From: an uncultured Spartobacteria bacterium
GTDB taxonomy: Bacteria > Verrucomicrobiota > Verrucomicrobiia > Chthoniobacterales > UBA6821
Reading direction: 5' to 3'
Assembly (NCBI GenBank): GCA_903847935.1
Contig: CAINEX010000001.1
Span: forward strand, 1-35,446
Length of the DNA: 35,446 nt
Under the pieces are notes generated by a model that saw only the letters and a list, made by a program, of their open reading frames with translations, was not told the DNA's origin and did not search any database. Position 1 is the first letter of the stretch; each line of letters opens with the position of its first letter. Shown here in pieces: positions 11,858 to 22,307 of this stretch. The position numbers and the translations under genes were made by a program.

Positions 11858-12457
11858 ATGGTCGAAACGTCCGGTTATCCCTTAAAAATCACCTTGATGC
11901 TGGTTTTTCTTTCCACACTCTTCGGATCCTGCAAGAGGGAGGCTTATGAATCCCCGGCCTATCGAATCGAAAAAACGCAGGGTGATTTTGAAATCCGCCG
12001 GTATCCCGAAAGTACCCTCGCCACCACCTCCATGAAACAACGTGGCGCGGATGGCTCCTTCATGCGCCTCTTCCGTTTCATCTCAGGACGCAACGAGCAA
12101 TCGGAAAAAATCTCCATGACCGTCCCCGTACTCATGAGTGGGGTGGAATCGGGAACGATGAGCTTTGTTGTTCCCAAGAAGATCGCCCTCAAGGGGGTCC
12201 CGCGCCCCGCTGATCCTTCCGTCAGGATCACCACCATGCCGGAGGGAGATTATGCCACGTACCGGTTCTCCGGACGGGCGGGCACTCTTCAAAACGAGGC
12301 TGCTGCCAAAAAATTATCCCTCTGGATCAGTGAACGGCATCTTGTCACGGAAGGCGCTCCGATGTTTGCCTCCTACAATCCTCCATGGACCCCGGGATTC
12401 ATGAGGCGCAACGAGGTGCTGATCAGAATCAATGGGTGCAATCCAGCAATCCCCTGA
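11858..12457 (+). CDS. SOUL-family heme-binding protein, probable lipoprotein
   Basis: A 199-residue protein with an N-terminal hydrophobic segment (ITLMLVFLSTLFGSC) ending in a cysteine, consistent with a lipoprotein or plain signal peptide; the lipobox LFGSC is imperfect. The rest is a SOUL domain: YRIEKTQGDFEIRRYPE, the ISGRNEQSEKISMTVPV loop, FVVPKK, the region around MPEGDYATYRFSG, and YNPPWTPGFMRRNEVLI near the end. SOUL proteins bind heme or other hydrophobic ligands; the role in bacteria is not settled. It is divergent from the uronate operon and 7 bases upstream of the methyltransferase gene, so the two may be co-transcribed. Confidence 0.88.
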   Translation: MVETSGYPLKITLMLVFLSTLFGSCKREAYESPAYRIEKTQGDFEIRRYPESTLATTSMKQRGADGSFMRLFRFISGRNEQSEKISMTVPVLMSGVESGTMSFVVPKKIALKGVPRPADPSVRITTMPEGDYATYRFSGRAGTLQNEAAAKKLSLWISERHLVTEGAPMFASYNPPWTPGFMRRNEVLIRINGCNPAIP

Positions 12458-16609: not shown

Positions 16610-16645
16610 TCCGGAAGGAGCCGTTTCAAGCAAGCCCCTGAATTG

Positions 16646-17446
16646 ATGAACTCTCCAACTCTGACAGCCTCCGAACAGCACTTGTCTAACGCTCTCAGGC
16701 CATCGCTCAATGCCGTGGAATCACACCCTGTCTTTGGGACCGTTCAAAACGAGGCGCAGTTACGAACCTTCATGGAATTTCATGTTTTCCCAGTCTGGGA
16801 TTTCATGTCGTTGCTTAAGTTCCTGCAGGCGGAGCTGGCTCCCTCCACATGGCCTTGGATGCCCCGTCCTCTGGCTCATGGGGATTTGGTGCGACTGATC
16901 AACGACATTGTGACAGGGGAGGAGTCCGACAAGCTACCTAAGTCCCACCGCAGCAGATCGACCCATGCAAGCCACTTCGAACTCTACCTCTTGGCGATGC
17001 GTGAGGTGGGTGCCGATACGACGCCGATCAACGCGTTCCTTGAGATGGTGATGAGTCACGGTCTCGAAGCGGCTCTGGACGCGCCGATGATCCCGGAGCC
17101 CTCGCGTGCCTTCATGAAGGATACCTTCGCCTTGCTGAAGCAGGGCGATGCTCACCGAGTCGCCGCCTCCTTTTCCTTTGGCCGTGAGAATGTCATCCCC
17201 GGCATGTTCAACTCACTGCTGGAAAAACTAGGCATTGGCGAAGATCGCGCCCCGATTTTCCACTACTACTTGAAACGCCACGCCGAACTCGATGGCGATG
17301 AGCACGGTCCGTCAGCACTCCGACTGGTGGCCACGCTTTGCGGTGACGATCCGGCCAAAATTGACGAGGCGGTTGAATCGGCCAAGGCATCTCTTGCTAG
17401 CCGGGCCCGTCTCTGGGACAGCGTTCAGACAACGCTGTCTGCGTAA
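16646..17446 (+). CDS. DUF3050 family protein (heme-oxygenase-like fold, possible diiron enzyme)
   Basis: A 266-residue soluble helical protein that reads as a full-length DUF3050 member: HPVFGTVQNEAQLRTFMEFH, VFPVWDFMSLLKFLQ, WMPRPLAHGDLVRLINDIVTGEE, then HFELYLLAMREVGAD. Potential metal ligands sit in the pattern expected for heme-oxygenase-like oxidases: His46, the acidic pair in VTGEE, His110/Glu112, and the run HYYLKRHAELDGDEHGP with His232, Asp236, Glu239 and His240. The family's reaction is not known to me. ATG 16646 is used; the codon just upstream is a TTG. It is 36 bases after lpxA and 9 bases before the DUF2256 gene, so it could belong either to the lipid A operon or to the photolyase group. 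Confidence 0.8.
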   Translation: MNSPTLTASEQHLSNALRPSLNAVESHPVFGTVQNEAQLRTFMEFHVFPVWDFMSLLKFLQAELAPSTWPWMPRPLAHGDLVRLINDIVTGEESDKLPKSHRSRSTHASHFELYLLAMREVGADTTPINAFLEMVMSHGLEAALDAPMIPEPSRAFMKDTFALLKQGDAHRVAASFSFGRENVIPGMFNSLLEKLGIGEDRAPIFHYYLKRHAELDGDEHGPSALRLVATLCGDDPAKIDEAVESAKASLASRARLWDSVQTTLSA

Positions 17447-17455
17447 CCCCGCGCC

Positions 17456-17629
17456 ATGCGCCGCGATAGAAAAGCGGTTCGCAAGAGCGATCTTCCCGAG
17501 AAGATCTGCCTGCATTGTGGCCGTCCCTTTCTTTGGAGGAAGAAATGGGAGAGGGATTGGGATTCCGTGACCTGCTGTAGTCAGGCCTGCAAGGTGCAGT
17601 TGAAGCGCACCCGCCGGAGCGGATCATGA
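17456..17629 (+). CDS. DUF2256 small zinc-ribbon-like protein
   Basis: A 57-residue ORF from ATG 17456 to TGA 17629. Four or five cysteines form a CxxC...C(C)xxxC pattern: Cys18 and Cys21 in KICLHCGRPF, then Cys40, Cys41 and Cys45 in TCCSQAC, with the WRKKWERDWD stretch between. That is the DUF2256 consensus (CxxCgrPFxWRKKW...CSxxC). The protein is very basic at both ends. It likely binds zinc and perhaps nucleic acid; no activity is established. Its stop overlaps the photolyase start in ATGA, so the two are translationally coupled. From memory, DUF2256 is commonly found beside cryptochrome/photolyase genes, which matches here. Confidence 0.85.
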   Translation: MRRDRKAVRKSDLPEKICLHCGRPFLWRKKWERDWDSVTCCSQACKVQLKRTRRSGS

Positions 17630-19116
17630 GAGGTCGTGAGCGGATTACACTTGTCTGGCTGAAGAGGGATCTGCGTCTGCACGATCACGGACCTCTTGTG
17701 GAGGCTTCCCGAAAATGTGCCGACGGGGAAAGAGCCATCGCGGTCTACGTGAAGGAGACCGATTACTGGGCTACGGATAAAGCCTCAGAGGAGCAATGGG
17801 AGTTTGTTGCAGAATGCCTGCTTCATCTATCGGGCGATTTGGAAAAGATAGGGTGCCGACTGCTGATCACGGAGGCATCCTCCGCCGAGATCACACTCAA
17901 GGCTCTCTTCGCCCATTACGAGGTGACGGAACTTCTCTGTCATCAAGAGACGGGAAACCATTGGACGTTTGAGAGGGACAAAAAAGTTTTCCGGCTTTGC
18001 CTCGAGCACGGCATCAAGGTGAGGGAGTTTCTTCAAAACGCGGTCATCAGAGGCAAAAACCGTCCGCCCGAAAAAGCAGTTCACCAGCAGTTCTGGCGAG
18101 GGTGGCTCTCTCAAAAACAGTCCGAAAATCCAACCTTCTGGCGTGATCCTGTGACGGTTCCGCCTCGTTGTGCGGAACCGAAGTTGATCACCTCCTCGTC
18201 TAGTCTTCGCCAGCGTGGTGGCGAAAAACTGGCTCTGGAACTGATGGAGGGTTTCTTTTCCCGGCGCTGCATGCTTCATGGCGGCTACAGAATCGAGATG
18301 GGAAGCCCCCTCCATGGGGACGAGACCTGCTCGCGTCTCTCACCCCATTTCAGCTGGGGAAGTCTTTCCACCAGACATGCCGCCCACACGGCCATGCGCC
18401 GGGGTGCTTCGTTGGTCCGTGGAAGCATCATTCATCGCAACAGCTTCCACAGGAGGCTGCGCTGGAGGGATCATTTTCTTCAAAAATTCGAATCCCTCTC
18501 CTGGATGGAATTCCGGTGCATCAATCCCGCGTCCGAAACGCTCCGTGGCTGGAACGAGAAATGGTATGAGAGATGGTCCCTTGGCATGACAGGATACCCC
18601 TTCATCGATGCCTGCATGAGATCGCTCAATGCAACGAATTGGCTGAATTTCAGAGCCCGGGCAATGCTTGTTTCTTTCGCTTCGTATGCGCTCAACCTCG
18701 ATTGGCGGCGCTTTGCACCCCATCTCGCCCGGACCTTCCTCGATTATGAGCCCGGGATTCACTACAGCCAGCTTCAGATGCAATCGGGAACAACCTTCGG
18801 CTCGATTCCAAGGATCTACAACCCGATCAAGCAATCCGTGGAGAAAGATCCGGATGGGGAATTCATCCGCCGTTGGGTTCCGGAGCTCCGCAACCTCTCA
18901 AAAGAATTGATCCATTTGCCCAGCGATATCTCCAGACACGGCTACCCTGCTGCAGTCATCTCACCCCCATCACTCTGGAGAGTGATGCGATCGAATGGCC
19001 CTAAATCTGCTTTGCCCCGCCATGCACCCAAAACAGGAAGATCACCAGCTAGCATCCCACGTAGCCAGCGCAGGAAAACGAATCTGGATCAACTGGATCT
19101 TTTTCTTCCCGGTTGA
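17626..19116 (+). CDS. Cryptochrome/photolyase family protein (FAD-binding)
   Basis: A 496-residue full-length member. Residues 7-135 are the alpha/beta antenna-type domain, opening with TLVWLKRDLRLHDHGPL. The FAD-binding helical domain covers about 230-430: LSPHFSWGSLSTR, the substrate-side helix RNSFHRRLRWRDHF, MTGYPFIDACMRSL, NWLNFRARAMLVSFASY, LDWR, then FLDYEPGIHYSQLQMQSG and RIYNPIKQSVEKDPDGEFIRRWVPEL. These are the FAD-cradling motifs of the superfamily. After 430 there is a basic tail to 496 with no recognised domain. Whether it repairs cyclobutane dimers, (6-4) products or acts as a light sensor cannot be decided by eye. It overlaps the DUF2256 gene by 4 bases and precedes the ADP-ribosylglycohydrolase-like gene by 33. 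Confidence 0.9.
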   Translation: MRGRERITLVWLKRDLRLHDHGPLVEASRKCADGERAIAVYVKETDYWATDKASEEQWEFVAECLLHLSGDLEKIGCRLLITEASSAEITLKALFAHYEVTELLCHQETGNHWTFERDKKVFRLCLEHGIKVREFLQNAVIRGKNRPPEKAVHQQFWRGWLSQKQSENPTFWRDPVTVPPRCAEPKLITSSSSLRQRGGEKLALELMEGFFSRRCMLHGGYRIEMGSPLHGDETCSRLSPHFSWGSLSTRHAAHTAMRRGASLVRGSIIHRNSFHRRLRWRDHFLQKFESLSWMEFRCINPASETLRGWNEKWYERWSLGMTGYPFIDACMRSLNATNWLNFRARAMLVSFASYALNLDWRRFAPHLARTFLDYEPGIHYSQLQMQSGTTFGSIPRIYNPIKQSVEKDPDGEFIRRWVPELRNLSKELIHLPSDISRHGYPAAVISPPSLWRVMRSNGPKSALPRHAPKTGRSPASIPRSQRRKTNLDQLDLFLPG

Positions 19117-19149: not shown

Positions 19150-20118
19150 ATGAGCGACCGTATACCATGGATTCAAGCCTACCATGGATCCCTCGCAGCA
19201 GATGCCCTGGCAATGCCTGTCCACTGGTACTACGACACGGCGGCTCTGCATCGGGACTACGGGACCGTGGATCGCTTCATGGAGCCTAGAAATCCCCATT
19301 CCGGAAGCATTCTCTGGCGCTCCGAATACCATGCGCTCAATGAGAAGGGGGATATCCTCCGTGATCAGGCCCAATACTGGTGCAAGCATGGGATCCATTA
19401 TCACCAGTTCCTCAAGGCAGGAGAAAACACACTGAATTACCGTCTTGCCGCGGAGCTATTTGCCTTTGTGAGGGAAAATGGCGGTTACGATCCCGATGCC
19501 TGGCTTGAGCGCTATATTGCCCGGATGCTCGAACCGGGATGGCATCGTGACACTTACGTGGAGGAGTATCACCGCGCTTTCTTCTCTCGCTATTCTCAGG
19601 GTAAAAAGCCCAGGAAGTGCGGGATCAGTGACGAGCACATCGGGGGACTCGCCACCGTGCCGGCCCTCTGCGCGGCAGTTTGCTCCTTGGAACCGGTCAC
19701 AGGGCTTTCGGATTTAAGGATGATCGTGAAGGAGCATGTCGGCCTCACCCATGCCCATGCGAATGTTCTCCGTGCCGCCGACACGTTGGTACGACTTCTA
19801 TGGAGAGTGGCGGAGGGGATGGAGGTCCATGAGGCGATCCGCTTGGAGGCGGGTGACTGGATCTCGGGGAAAAAATCCGACTCCTGGCTTCATCAAGCTG
19901 ACGAACAGGTCATTGGCACCCGTTTCAGTCCTGCCTGTTACATAGCTGATGCAATGCCCGCATCGCTCTACCTCGTCTGGAAGTACCATCGCGACTTCTC
20001 AGCAGGAATCATTGCCAACTCCATGGTTGGGGGAGACAATTGTCACCGCGGTGCAGTTGTCGGAGGCATTCTAGGAGCTGCCTGTGGTGTGCCGGAGCGG
20101 TTTCAGGTCACGGTATAA
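19150..20118 (+). CDS. ADP-ribosylglycohydrolase family protein, J1-crystallin-like
   Basis: A 322-residue all-helical protein of the ADP-ribosylglycohydrolase superfamily. The N-terminal helix GSLAADALAMPVHWYYD corresponds to the GxxxGDALG region and the end VGGDNCHRGAVVGGILGAACG to the GGDTDT metal site. Here the site reads GGDNCHRG (294-301): Asp296 is kept but the following Asp-Thr-Asp series is Asn-Cys-His. That variant is the one I associate with J1-crystallin-like members rather than DraG or ARH enzymes. GLTHAHANVLRAADTLVR at 184-215 is the second metal-side segment. Hydrolysis of ADP-ribose links would be the family role, but activity with the altered site is uncertain. It sits between two photolyase-like genes with gaps of 33 and 18 bases. 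Confidence 0.82.
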   Translation: MSDRIPWIQAYHGSLAADALAMPVHWYYDTAALHRDYGTVDRFMEPRNPHSGSILWRSEYHALNEKGDILRDQAQYWCKHGIHYHQFLKAGENTLNYRLAAELFAFVRENGGYDPDAWLERYIARMLEPGWHRDTYVEEYHRAFFSRYSQGKKPRKCGISDEHIGGLATVPALCAAVCSLEPVTGLSDLRMIVKEHVGLTHAHANVLRAADTLVRLLWRVAEGMEVHEAIRLEAGDWISGKKSDSWLHQADEQVIGTRFSPACYIADAMPASLYLVWKYHRDFSAGIIANSMVGGDNCHRGAVVGGILGAACGVPERFQVTV

Positions 20119-20136
20119 TTGGGAACTATTTGTTTC

Positions 20137-21357
20137 ATGAATCCAACGCGTGGAGAGGGACTGCAGACGCTGGAGCGATTTTTACCTCGTGCTGGAACGA
20201 GCTATGCGCAGGGTCGCAATTTTGTTCCAGGAGTCGTTTCAGGCCTTTCCCCTTACCTTCGTCACCGGTTGATCACGGAGGCCGAGGTGGTCGCCGCTGT
20301 TCTTCAACAGCATTCTCCAAACGAGGCAGAAAAGTTTATCCAGGAAATCTGCTGGCGAACCTATTGGAAAGGATGGCTGGAATTGAGACCCCAGGTCTGG
20401 CTTGAGTATCTCCATGATCTTCAAACCCTTCGTGCGGGGATGAAATCGGAACCTGCAATGCATCATCTGGTTCAAAAAGCCGAAAACGGCATGACTGGGA
20501 TAGGTTGTCTCGATGCTTGGGTTAGCGAACTCCGTCAGACGGGATACCTTCACAACCATGTCCGGATGTGGTTTGCCAGCATCTGGGTTCACACTCTGCG
20601 ACTGCCTTGGCAACTCGGTGCAGACTTCTTCATGCGATACCTTTTGGATGGAGACCCTGCGTCGAATACCCTCTCATGGCGCTGGGTCTGCGGATTACAG
20701 ACTCAGGGAAAGGTCTACCTGGCGACAGCCGAAAATATCGAGCGCTTCACGGACGGGTGTCATGCACCGCATGGACTTCTGGCCCGGGAGGCTCCCCCGA
20801 TCAAGGGGCCTGTCACCCTTCACCCTCCGCTCCCGCTCGCTCGTCCGGATCACCATATTCAAGGGGAAAAAACAGCACTGCTTGTCACGGAGGAGGATCT
20901 GCTACCGGAGGATTGGGACATTCCACCACGCGATATCACGACAATCTTTCTTGTAAATACGGCTGATGCTTATCCCGGAATCGGAGAGCTTCCCGTTGCA
21001 TGGAAACAAAAGTCACTCGAGGGAACTGCCGAGCGATTGGCCGCCGAGTTTCAATGCCCGGTCCTTAGCCTGGAGGGTGGGATTGAATCAATAGCTTCAA
21101 GATTGCACGGTCTCCTGCGTGATCACGGTGCTCAATCCCTCAGCATCATGAGTCCTCCCGTTGGTCCGACGCATGGCGTGATCGTCCCGATGCTCTCTGA
21201 ACTGGCAGGGGAGAGGTTTCATCTGAGAAGACTGCGGCGTTCTTGGGATCAGGCATTCTGGCCGCACGCGACTCATGGATTTTTCAAATTGAAGGAGCGG
21301 ATACCCTCCGTCCTGAAGCAACTCTCATCAATCACATCTTCCATGTCCGATCGGTGA
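20137..21357 (+). CDS. Photolyase-related FAD-binding protein with C-terminal alpha/beta domain
   Basis: A 406-residue protein beginning directly with the helical FAD-binding domain of photolyases (about 1-215): RNFVPGVVSGLSPYLRHRLI, EICWRTYWKGWLELRP, GIGCLDAWVSELRQTGYLHNH then VRMWFASIW, DGDPASNTLSWRWVCGLQTQGK and TAENIERF. The usual N-terminal antenna domain is absent. Residues about 245-395 instead form a predicted alpha/beta unit with strands TALLVTEEDL, ITTIFLVNT, CPVLSLEGG and SLSIMSPPVGP, ending WPHATHGFFKLKERIP. This looks like the two photolyase domains in reversed order. ATG 20137 is chosen over an in-frame TTG at 20119. No frameshift joins it to the preceding genes. A light-dependent flavoenzyme is the reasonable guess; repair or signalling is unknown. 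Confidence 0.83.
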   Translation: MNPTRGEGLQTLERFLPRAGTSYAQGRNFVPGVVSGLSPYLRHRLITEAEVVAAVLQQHSPNEAEKFIQEICWRTYWKGWLELRPQVWLEYLHDLQTLRAGMKSEPAMHHLVQKAENGMTGIGCLDAWVSELRQTGYLHNHVRMWFASIWVHTLRLPWQLGADFFMRYLLDGDPASNTLSWRWVCGLQTQGKVYLATAENIERFTDGCHAPHGLLAREAPPIKGPVTLHPPLPLARPDHHIQGEKTALLVTEEDLLPEDWDIPPRDITTIFLVNTADAYPGIGELPVAWKQKSLEGTAERLAAEFQCPVLSLEGGIESIASRLHGLLRDHGAQSLSIMSPPVGPTHGVIVPMLSELAGERFHLRRLRRSWDQAFWPHATHGFFKLKERIPSVLKQLSSITSSMSDR

Positions 21358-21375: not shown

Positions 21376-21624
21376 TCACTCCAACACCTCGGGATGGGAG
21401 GGCTTCAGACGTCGTTCGAGAAGCTTCCGGTGTTTCGTCACCCGACCATTCACTCGCTTTCGCCACATTGTAAAACTTGATGGTTTCAATTCGCGGCGCA
21501 TGATGTCGATCACCTCTTGTTCTCGAAGGCCAGTGCGGTGCTTAATCTCCTCGAAACTGGTTCGATCCTCCCACGCGAGTCGAATCACAAGCGAGATCTG
21601 GTCTGTATGGCATTTTGCTTTCAT
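21376..21624 (-). CDS. DUF2805 / TIGR03643 family small protein
   Basis: An 82-residue basic protein. The central stretch LVIRLAWEDRTSFEEIKHRTGL, then REQEVIDIMRRELKPSSFTMW and RKRVNGRVTKHRK, matches what I know as DUF2805/TIGR03643. The predicted form is helix-turn-helix followed by a basic tail, so nucleic-acid binding is plausible. It starts inside the stop of the AlkB-like gene (shared bases 21621-21624, ATGA), showing coupling, and its 3' end faces the photolyase-like gene at 20137 across an 18-base gap. Function is unknown; like DUF2256 I recall the family near photolyase genes. Confidence 0.82.
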   Translation of the reverse strand: MKAKCHTDQISLVIRLAWEDRTSFEEIKHRTGLREQEVIDIMRRELKPSSFTMWRKRVNGRVTKHRKLLERRLKPSHPEVLE

Positions 21625-22307
21625 GGGATTTGATCGGCGGCTTCCAAGCCCAGAAACATCCGGAAAGTCAGGTTGATCCGGGGTGTGGTGATTTTCTTGG
21701 TCTTGGGCATGGTATGGGACCAGTGATGTTGGGTCTCCCCTCTCATCAGCAACAAGCTGCCGTTTTCAAGAAGTTTGGAGACGACCTCCTTGGATTCCCG
21801 ATGCTTGAGTTTGAAGATCCGCTCGGCACCAAAGCTCACGGAGGCAATCACGGGATTGCGACCCAATGTTTTCTCGTCATCGCTATGCCATCCCATCCCT
21901 TCCGAGCCGTCATGGTAGAGGTTGAGTAGGCAGGAGTTGAACCGATAGGCGCACTGATGTTCCACACGCTGCTTGATGAGCAATAGCGCAGGACTCCAGG
22001 AAGAAGCCGTCTTGCTCGTGCCTGAGTAGGAATAGGAAAAACCACCATCCCCGAGCCAGGCAACCTTGCGGGAAAGGACTCTTTTCTGACCAAAGAGAAT
22101 CACCTCGTCATGCTGCCATGGAGTTGTGGTCAGCAACTCCTGGAAAAGCTCCTCCGACTCATCACGACTAAAGAGCTTAGGCATGTACTCGACCAACCCG
22201 TCTCGGTTCAGAAGAGGTACCCCATTCTTGTTGAATAGGAATGTCTGGCACTCGCTCAAGACCAATTCGGGGGGTGATTCCAAAATCGGGGCTTTCCGAC
22301 ATGGCAA
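21621..22307 (-). CDS. AlkB-like 2-oxoglutarate/Fe(II) dioxygenase
   Basis: A protein of about 228 residues of the ALKBH2/3-like AlkB group, which reverse N-alkyl lesions such as 1-methyladenine and 3-methylcytosine by oxidation. Iron ligands are His141 and Asp143 in GWHSDDE and His198 in HHWSHTMPK; 2-oxoglutarate contacts are the arginines in PRINLTFR (Arg210, Arg216). RFNSCLLNLYHDGSEGMGWH and NPVIASVSFGAERIFKLKHR are typical core strands. The start is uncertain: no ATG exists between the in-frame stop upstream and codon 42, and the TTG at 22307 gives the full family N-terminus. It is the upstream member of a pair with the DUF2805 gene. Confidence 0.9.
   Translation of the reverse strand: MPCRKAPILESPPELVLSECQTFLFNKNGVPLLNRDGLVEYMPKLFSRDESEELFQELLTTTPWQHDEVILFGQKRVLSRKVAWLGDGGFSYSYSGTSKTASSWSPALLLIKQRVEHQCAYRFNSCLLNLYHDGSEGMGWHSDDEKTLGRNPVIASVSFGAERIFKLKHRESKEVVSKLLENGSLLLMRGETQHHWSHTMPKTKKITTPRINLTFRMFLGLEAADQIP

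Follow-up and report, generated by a model that had tools for sequence, protein, structure and literature searches.

A gene run encoding two photolyase-like proteins

The stretch of DNA analysed here, referred to as the window, comprises 35,446 nucleotides from an uncultured Spartobacteria bacterium and contains a run of three genes on the forward strand: a gene for a DASH-like photolyase/cryptochrome (17626..19116), a gene for an ADP-ribosylglycohydrolase (19150..20118; PF03747, E 3e-37) and a gene whose product comprises 406 amino acids from the first ATG (20137..21357) and which very probably codes for a photolyase of the NewPHL class. These genes are separated by gaps of 33 and 18 bases, the latter counted up to the ATG of the NewPHL gene, and no promoter or terminator signals above chance were detected around the run. 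An alternative in-frame TTG start at position 20119 would extend the NewPHL protein by six amino acids, and the corresponding open reading frame (20119..21357, +) has zero internal stops. The product of the DASH-like gene has the normal domain order, with an antenna domain (PF00875) at residues 8-165 and a FAD domain at residues 274-436; it is nearest to DASH models, but scores far below their cut-off (148.6 vs. 317 bits). Upstream of the NewPHL gene, the same strand also carries genes for a DUF3050 protein weakly similar to haem-oxygenase-like proteins (16643-17446, +) and for a SOUL haem-binding protein (11858-12457, +). A TIGR03643 protein and an AlkB-like 2OG-Fe(II) oxygenase are encoded convergently with the NewPHL gene (21376-22307, -), and a TIGR03643 gene adjoins the NewPHL gene at another locus (L124) as well.

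The initial annotation had proposed that the 406-residue protein starts with the helical FAD-binding domain and ends with an alpha/beta domain, which is the reverse of the order in photolyases and cryptochromes, and this observation holds. FAD_binding_7 is the sole Pfam domain above the curated cut-off; it covers residues 67-194 (E 1e-23) and corresponds to profile positions 1-126 of 203. A sequence search of the PDB matches residues 7-195 to the FAD lobe of class I/III photolyases, with 4u63 as the top match (E 6e-18); searches of this type did not reveal any solved structure of a NewPHL. Pfam did not detect the antenna domain PF00875 in the protein, whose layout departs from the canonical one of an N-terminal PF00875 domain followed by the FAD domain. 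Based on Pfam, PDB alignments and conservation, the N-terminal catalytic FAD-binding lobe can be assigned to residues 1-194 (20137..20718, +). It is followed by a linker of residues ~195-245 (20719..20871, +), delimited by the predicted secondary structure and the weak conservation at residues 211-245, and by the C-terminal five-stranded alpha/beta 'Z-domain' (residues 246-406; 20872..21354, +), which resembles an antenna domain according to AlphaFold2, Foldseek and hhalign.

The C-terminal domain and its probable kinship with the photolyase antenna domain

The full-length protein was modelled with AlphaFold2 using 65 relatives (mean pLDDT 95.1, pTM 0.92). In this model, residues 1-204 are helical, and residues 246-377 form an alpha/beta domain with five strands (246-250, 267-273, 309-312, 334-338 and 362-366) and helices after strands two, three, four and five. 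A GP-containing loop had been suggested to follow the fourth strand; indeed, G343 is invariant and P341 and P344 are nearly invariant among the 65 relatives, and all three residues are located directly after strand 334-338. A Foldseek search with the full-length model retrieved photolyases or cryptochromes in all 50 of the 50 matches listed. These alignments cover no more than ~210-250 columns, about what a match to just the FAD lobe would give, and the C-terminal domain was therefore modelled separately. It kept its fold (pLDDT 93.0).

A structural search with this part of the protein had been named as a check in the initial annotation. In a Foldseek search of the PDB with the C-terminal domain alone, the top hit is the (6-4) photolyase PhrB (6dd6, E 6.9e-4, probability 1.00, TM 0.56 by query length), and a further PhrB structure, 4dja, ranks second. 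Generic alpha/beta folds follow with E values of 4e-3 and above, and plant, algal and animal cryptochromes are found among the lower ranks; in the viral library BFVD, photolyases occupy ranks 2 and 28. Furthermore, a profile comparison with hhalign aligned 76 C-terminal domains to 48 antenna domains over 99 columns with their elements in the same order (probability 86%, P 5e-6). Reversed-profile controls (P about 0.3) and a FAD-domain control (P 0.44) were not significant, and the top score of 50 column-shuffled profiles was 22.2, compared to 42.9 for the real comparison. An initial run against 18 antenna domains, most of them close to one another, had given a weak result (P 0.014); it improved to P 1.2e-4 with 28 antenna domains and to P 5e-6 with 48 antenna domains and 11 more C-terminal domains, thus profile depth mattered.

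These results speak for a remote relationship between the C-terminal domain and the photolyase antenna domain, which we consider rather likely, and they support the idea that the protein arose by permutation. The circular permutation put forward in the initial annotation is favoured at the level of domains, as judged from Foldseek and the profile comparison, but it does not hold as a clean permutation: since the last ~75 positions of the FAD_binding_7 profile are also absent from the protein, the arrangement is better described as an inversion of the domain order accompanied by loss. Alternatively, as the initial annotation had also considered, an unrelated Rossmann-like domain, convergent with the antenna domain, might have been fused to the FAD lobe, a scenario that would be compatible with the NewPHL identity and to which we assign a clearly smaller, though appreciable, likelihood. 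Pfam gives no antenna domain, and sub-threshold PF00875 matches occur in just three of the 65 C-terminal domains (best E 0.0038), while five of the 65 weakly match BLH_phosphatase (best E 7e-5), a match that was absent from ten relatives scanned individually; in addition, OMP decarboxylase and universal stress proteins come close behind photolyase in Foldseek E value. Convergence would, however, have to account for photolyases at rank one in the PDB and rank two in BFVD, and for an element-by-element profile match that the reversed, shuffled and FAD-domain controls do not reproduce. Kinship with the antenna domain is therefore the reading adopted below.

Relatives and gene neighbourhood

A genome scan yielded 588 stretches encoding relatives, the best 80 loci of which are 43-74% identical to the window protein and nearly all full-length; length and inverted architecture are kept in nearly all of these 80 loci, which belong to Alphaproteobacteria, Gammaproteobacteria, Actinomycetota, Acidobacteriota and Verrucomicrobiota. 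Full-length relatives are present in the Roseobacter group (Tateyamaria, Donghicola and Ruegeria TM1040) and in Sphingomonadales. Within the phylum of the window, a strong relative was found in 14 of 289 sampled genomes, its own genome not counted, and the distribution is thus patchy. A quickly computed tree places the window protein together with sequences from two Spartobacteria/Chthoniobacterales genomes and from one genome labelled Proteobacteria; two Hyphomicrobium sequences adjoin this group, and most other verrucomicrobial sequences lie apart. This grouping suggests that the NewPHL gene may have been transferred horizontally.

Two side observations concern variants of the architecture. 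At locus L118:6760-7921 (genome G108), the NewPHL FAD lobe and the C-terminal domain are encoded in separate frames, which recalls the phr4/phr5 split of marine Synechococcus. Relatives of 361-365 amino acids at loci L097, L098 and L100 possess an N-terminal FAD lobe and a differing C-terminal part; a DASH-like photolyase gene adjoins each of them, and they may represent another inverted subgroup.

The neighbours of the NewPHL gene in the window recur elsewhere. A homolog of the DASH-like gene is located directly downstream of the NewPHL gene in 11 proteobacterial loci (offsets of 1157-1193 bases), and an ADP-ribosylglycohydrolase gene adjoins the NewPHL gene at loci L118 and L123, both from distantly related Verrucomicrobiota. 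A literature search retrieved no relevant published link between photolyases and ADP-ribosylglycohydrolases in operons. The recurring associations suggest a shared UV response, and the repeated pairing of a DASH-like photolyase with NewPHL suggests a division of labour between the two.

Catalytic residues, proposed function and relation to known photolyase classes

Ten residues, namely E70, W73, N140, R143, M144, D171, D173, N177, W181 and W183, are invariant in all 65 relatives, and W158 is kept in 64 of them. Based on the alignment from the PDB sequence search, we take their equivalents in Escherichia coli photolyase to be E274, W277, N341, R344, M345, D372, D374, N378, W382 and W384, with W158 corresponding to W359. 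Judged by the roles of these E. coli residues, E70, W73, N140, M144, W183, N177, R143, D171 and D173 presumably serve in contacting and splitting of cyclobutane pyrimidine dimers (CPDs) and in FAD binding, whereas W181 and W158 are presumably the electron-transfer tryptophans closest to FAD. A conserved tryptophan at the position of E. coli W306 is missing among the 65 relatives and thus, at the sequence level, a tryptophan dyad (W181 and W158) remains in place of the triad. The family alignment likewise contains no conserved set of Fe-S cysteines; the window protein has five cysteines, and the residues seen most often at these sites across the family are L, C (38%), A, R and C (29%).

From these features, we infer that the protein would act as a CPD photolyase. 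The N-terminal helical lobe would bind FAD, and blue or UV-A light would excite the reduced cofactor. A CPD positioned between W73 and W183 would receive an electron from it, assisted by E70 and N140; the dimer would then split and the electron return. Photoreduction of FAD could proceed via the short tryptophan dyad W181-W158. By analogy with characterised NewPHLs, for which this substrate has been reported, a preference for CPDs in single-stranded DNA is probable. The C-terminal domain, which probably lacks an antenna chromophore, may pack on the catalytic lobe and complete or cover the cofactor site; in NewPHL, this domain is reported to seal the FAD site from solvent.

Three other readings of the protein were weighed against a NewPHL with CPD-photolyase function. 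The partial match to the FAD profile (positions 1-126 of 203) could point to a truncated photolyase or to a frameshift that separated the lobe from an upstream antenna domain, a possibility already raised in the initial annotation. However, the same partial match, ending at profile position ~123-143 of 203, was found in ten out of ten relatives examined, many relatives share the full-length architecture, and no antenna-like frame is present upstream of the gene, where the intact and unrelated ADP-ribosylglycohydrolase gene extends to its stop at 20118. A missed frameshift or lost antenna was rejected on account of this intact gene and of the inverted architecture conserved across phyla, and an artefact has next to no probability. 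It is also improbable that the protein is a cryptochrome-like photoreceptor, in which light perceived by the FAD lobe would be relayed as a signal by the C-terminal domain, without any repair. Signalling roles are described for some photolyase relatives, for instance R. sphaeroides CryB (PMC9178010), and an ADP-ribosylglycohydrolase is encoded next door, but a receptor would not need the residues for CPD contact and splitting that are invariant in the 65 relatives, and the characterised members are repair enzymes. Still less probable is membership in the picocyanobacterial Phr4/Phr5/Phr6 group. Its members in marine Synechococcus and Cyanobium, Phr4/Phr5 and Phr6, share the reversed FAD/photolyase order and are proposed (6-4) photolyases; however, they possess four Fe-S cysteines (PMC9426592), and this assignment was rejected since the family of the window protein has no conserved four-cysteine set.

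An inverted class of photolyases is already published. The NewPHL class was reported in 2020 (Emmerich et al., NAR 48:12845), and it is described in PMC9426592 as CPD photolyases for single-stranded DNA with an N-terminal FAD domain and a C-terminal Z-domain; the same paper identifies Phr7 of picocyanobacteria (Prochlorococcus) as a NewPHL without Fe-S cysteines. PMC13274461 equates NewPHL with SPL and speaks of an 'inverted domain topology', and the NewPHL of Dinoroseobacter shibae has a tryptophan dyad only (PMC8948257). The present analysis adds that verrucomicrobial genomes carry this class, if only patchily, and provides computed evidence that its C-terminal domain and the antenna domain are remotely related. 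This kinship bears on the proposal, cited in PMC9649867, that the family descends from short photolyases without an antenna domain (SPLs). It is tempting to speculate, although we regard the combination as a long shot, that the Z-domain derives from an antenna domain that has moved and degenerated, that NewPHLs descend from a permuted two-lobed photolyase and do not themselves represent antenna-less ancestors of the family, and that the verrucomicrobial genes form a module in which the NewPHL and the DASH-like photolyase act together with an ADP-ribosylglycohydrolase that frees damaged DNA or repair proteins of ADP-ribose.

The window protein was assigned to its class by architecture, residues and its relatives in Roseobacteraceae and Sphingomonadales, set against published features of NewPHLs; characterised members of the class are A8LJA9 of D. 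shibae and M7YZC8 of M. mesophilicum. Like class I/III CPD photolyases (1dnp, 1owl and 4u63), it has a homologous FAD lobe with the same CPD-contact residues; in those enzymes, however, an N-terminal antenna precedes a complete FAD domain, whereas the window protein is inverted and shortened at the end of the FAD profile. With Phr4/Phr5 and Phr6 it shares the reversed domain order, but not the four Fe-S cysteines. With NewPHL it shares the N-terminal FAD lobe, the separate C-terminal Z-domain without an N-terminal antenna, the tryptophan dyad and the lack of Fe-S cysteines, and it has Roseobacter-group and sphingomonad relatives at about 42-48% identity. Unlike the NewPHLs described, it comes from a host of the Verrucomicrobiota, and its gene lies beside those for a DASH-like photolyase and an ADP-ribosylglycohydrolase. 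Taken together, the protein fits NewPHL on every sequence feature tested and is very probably a well-formed further member of this class.
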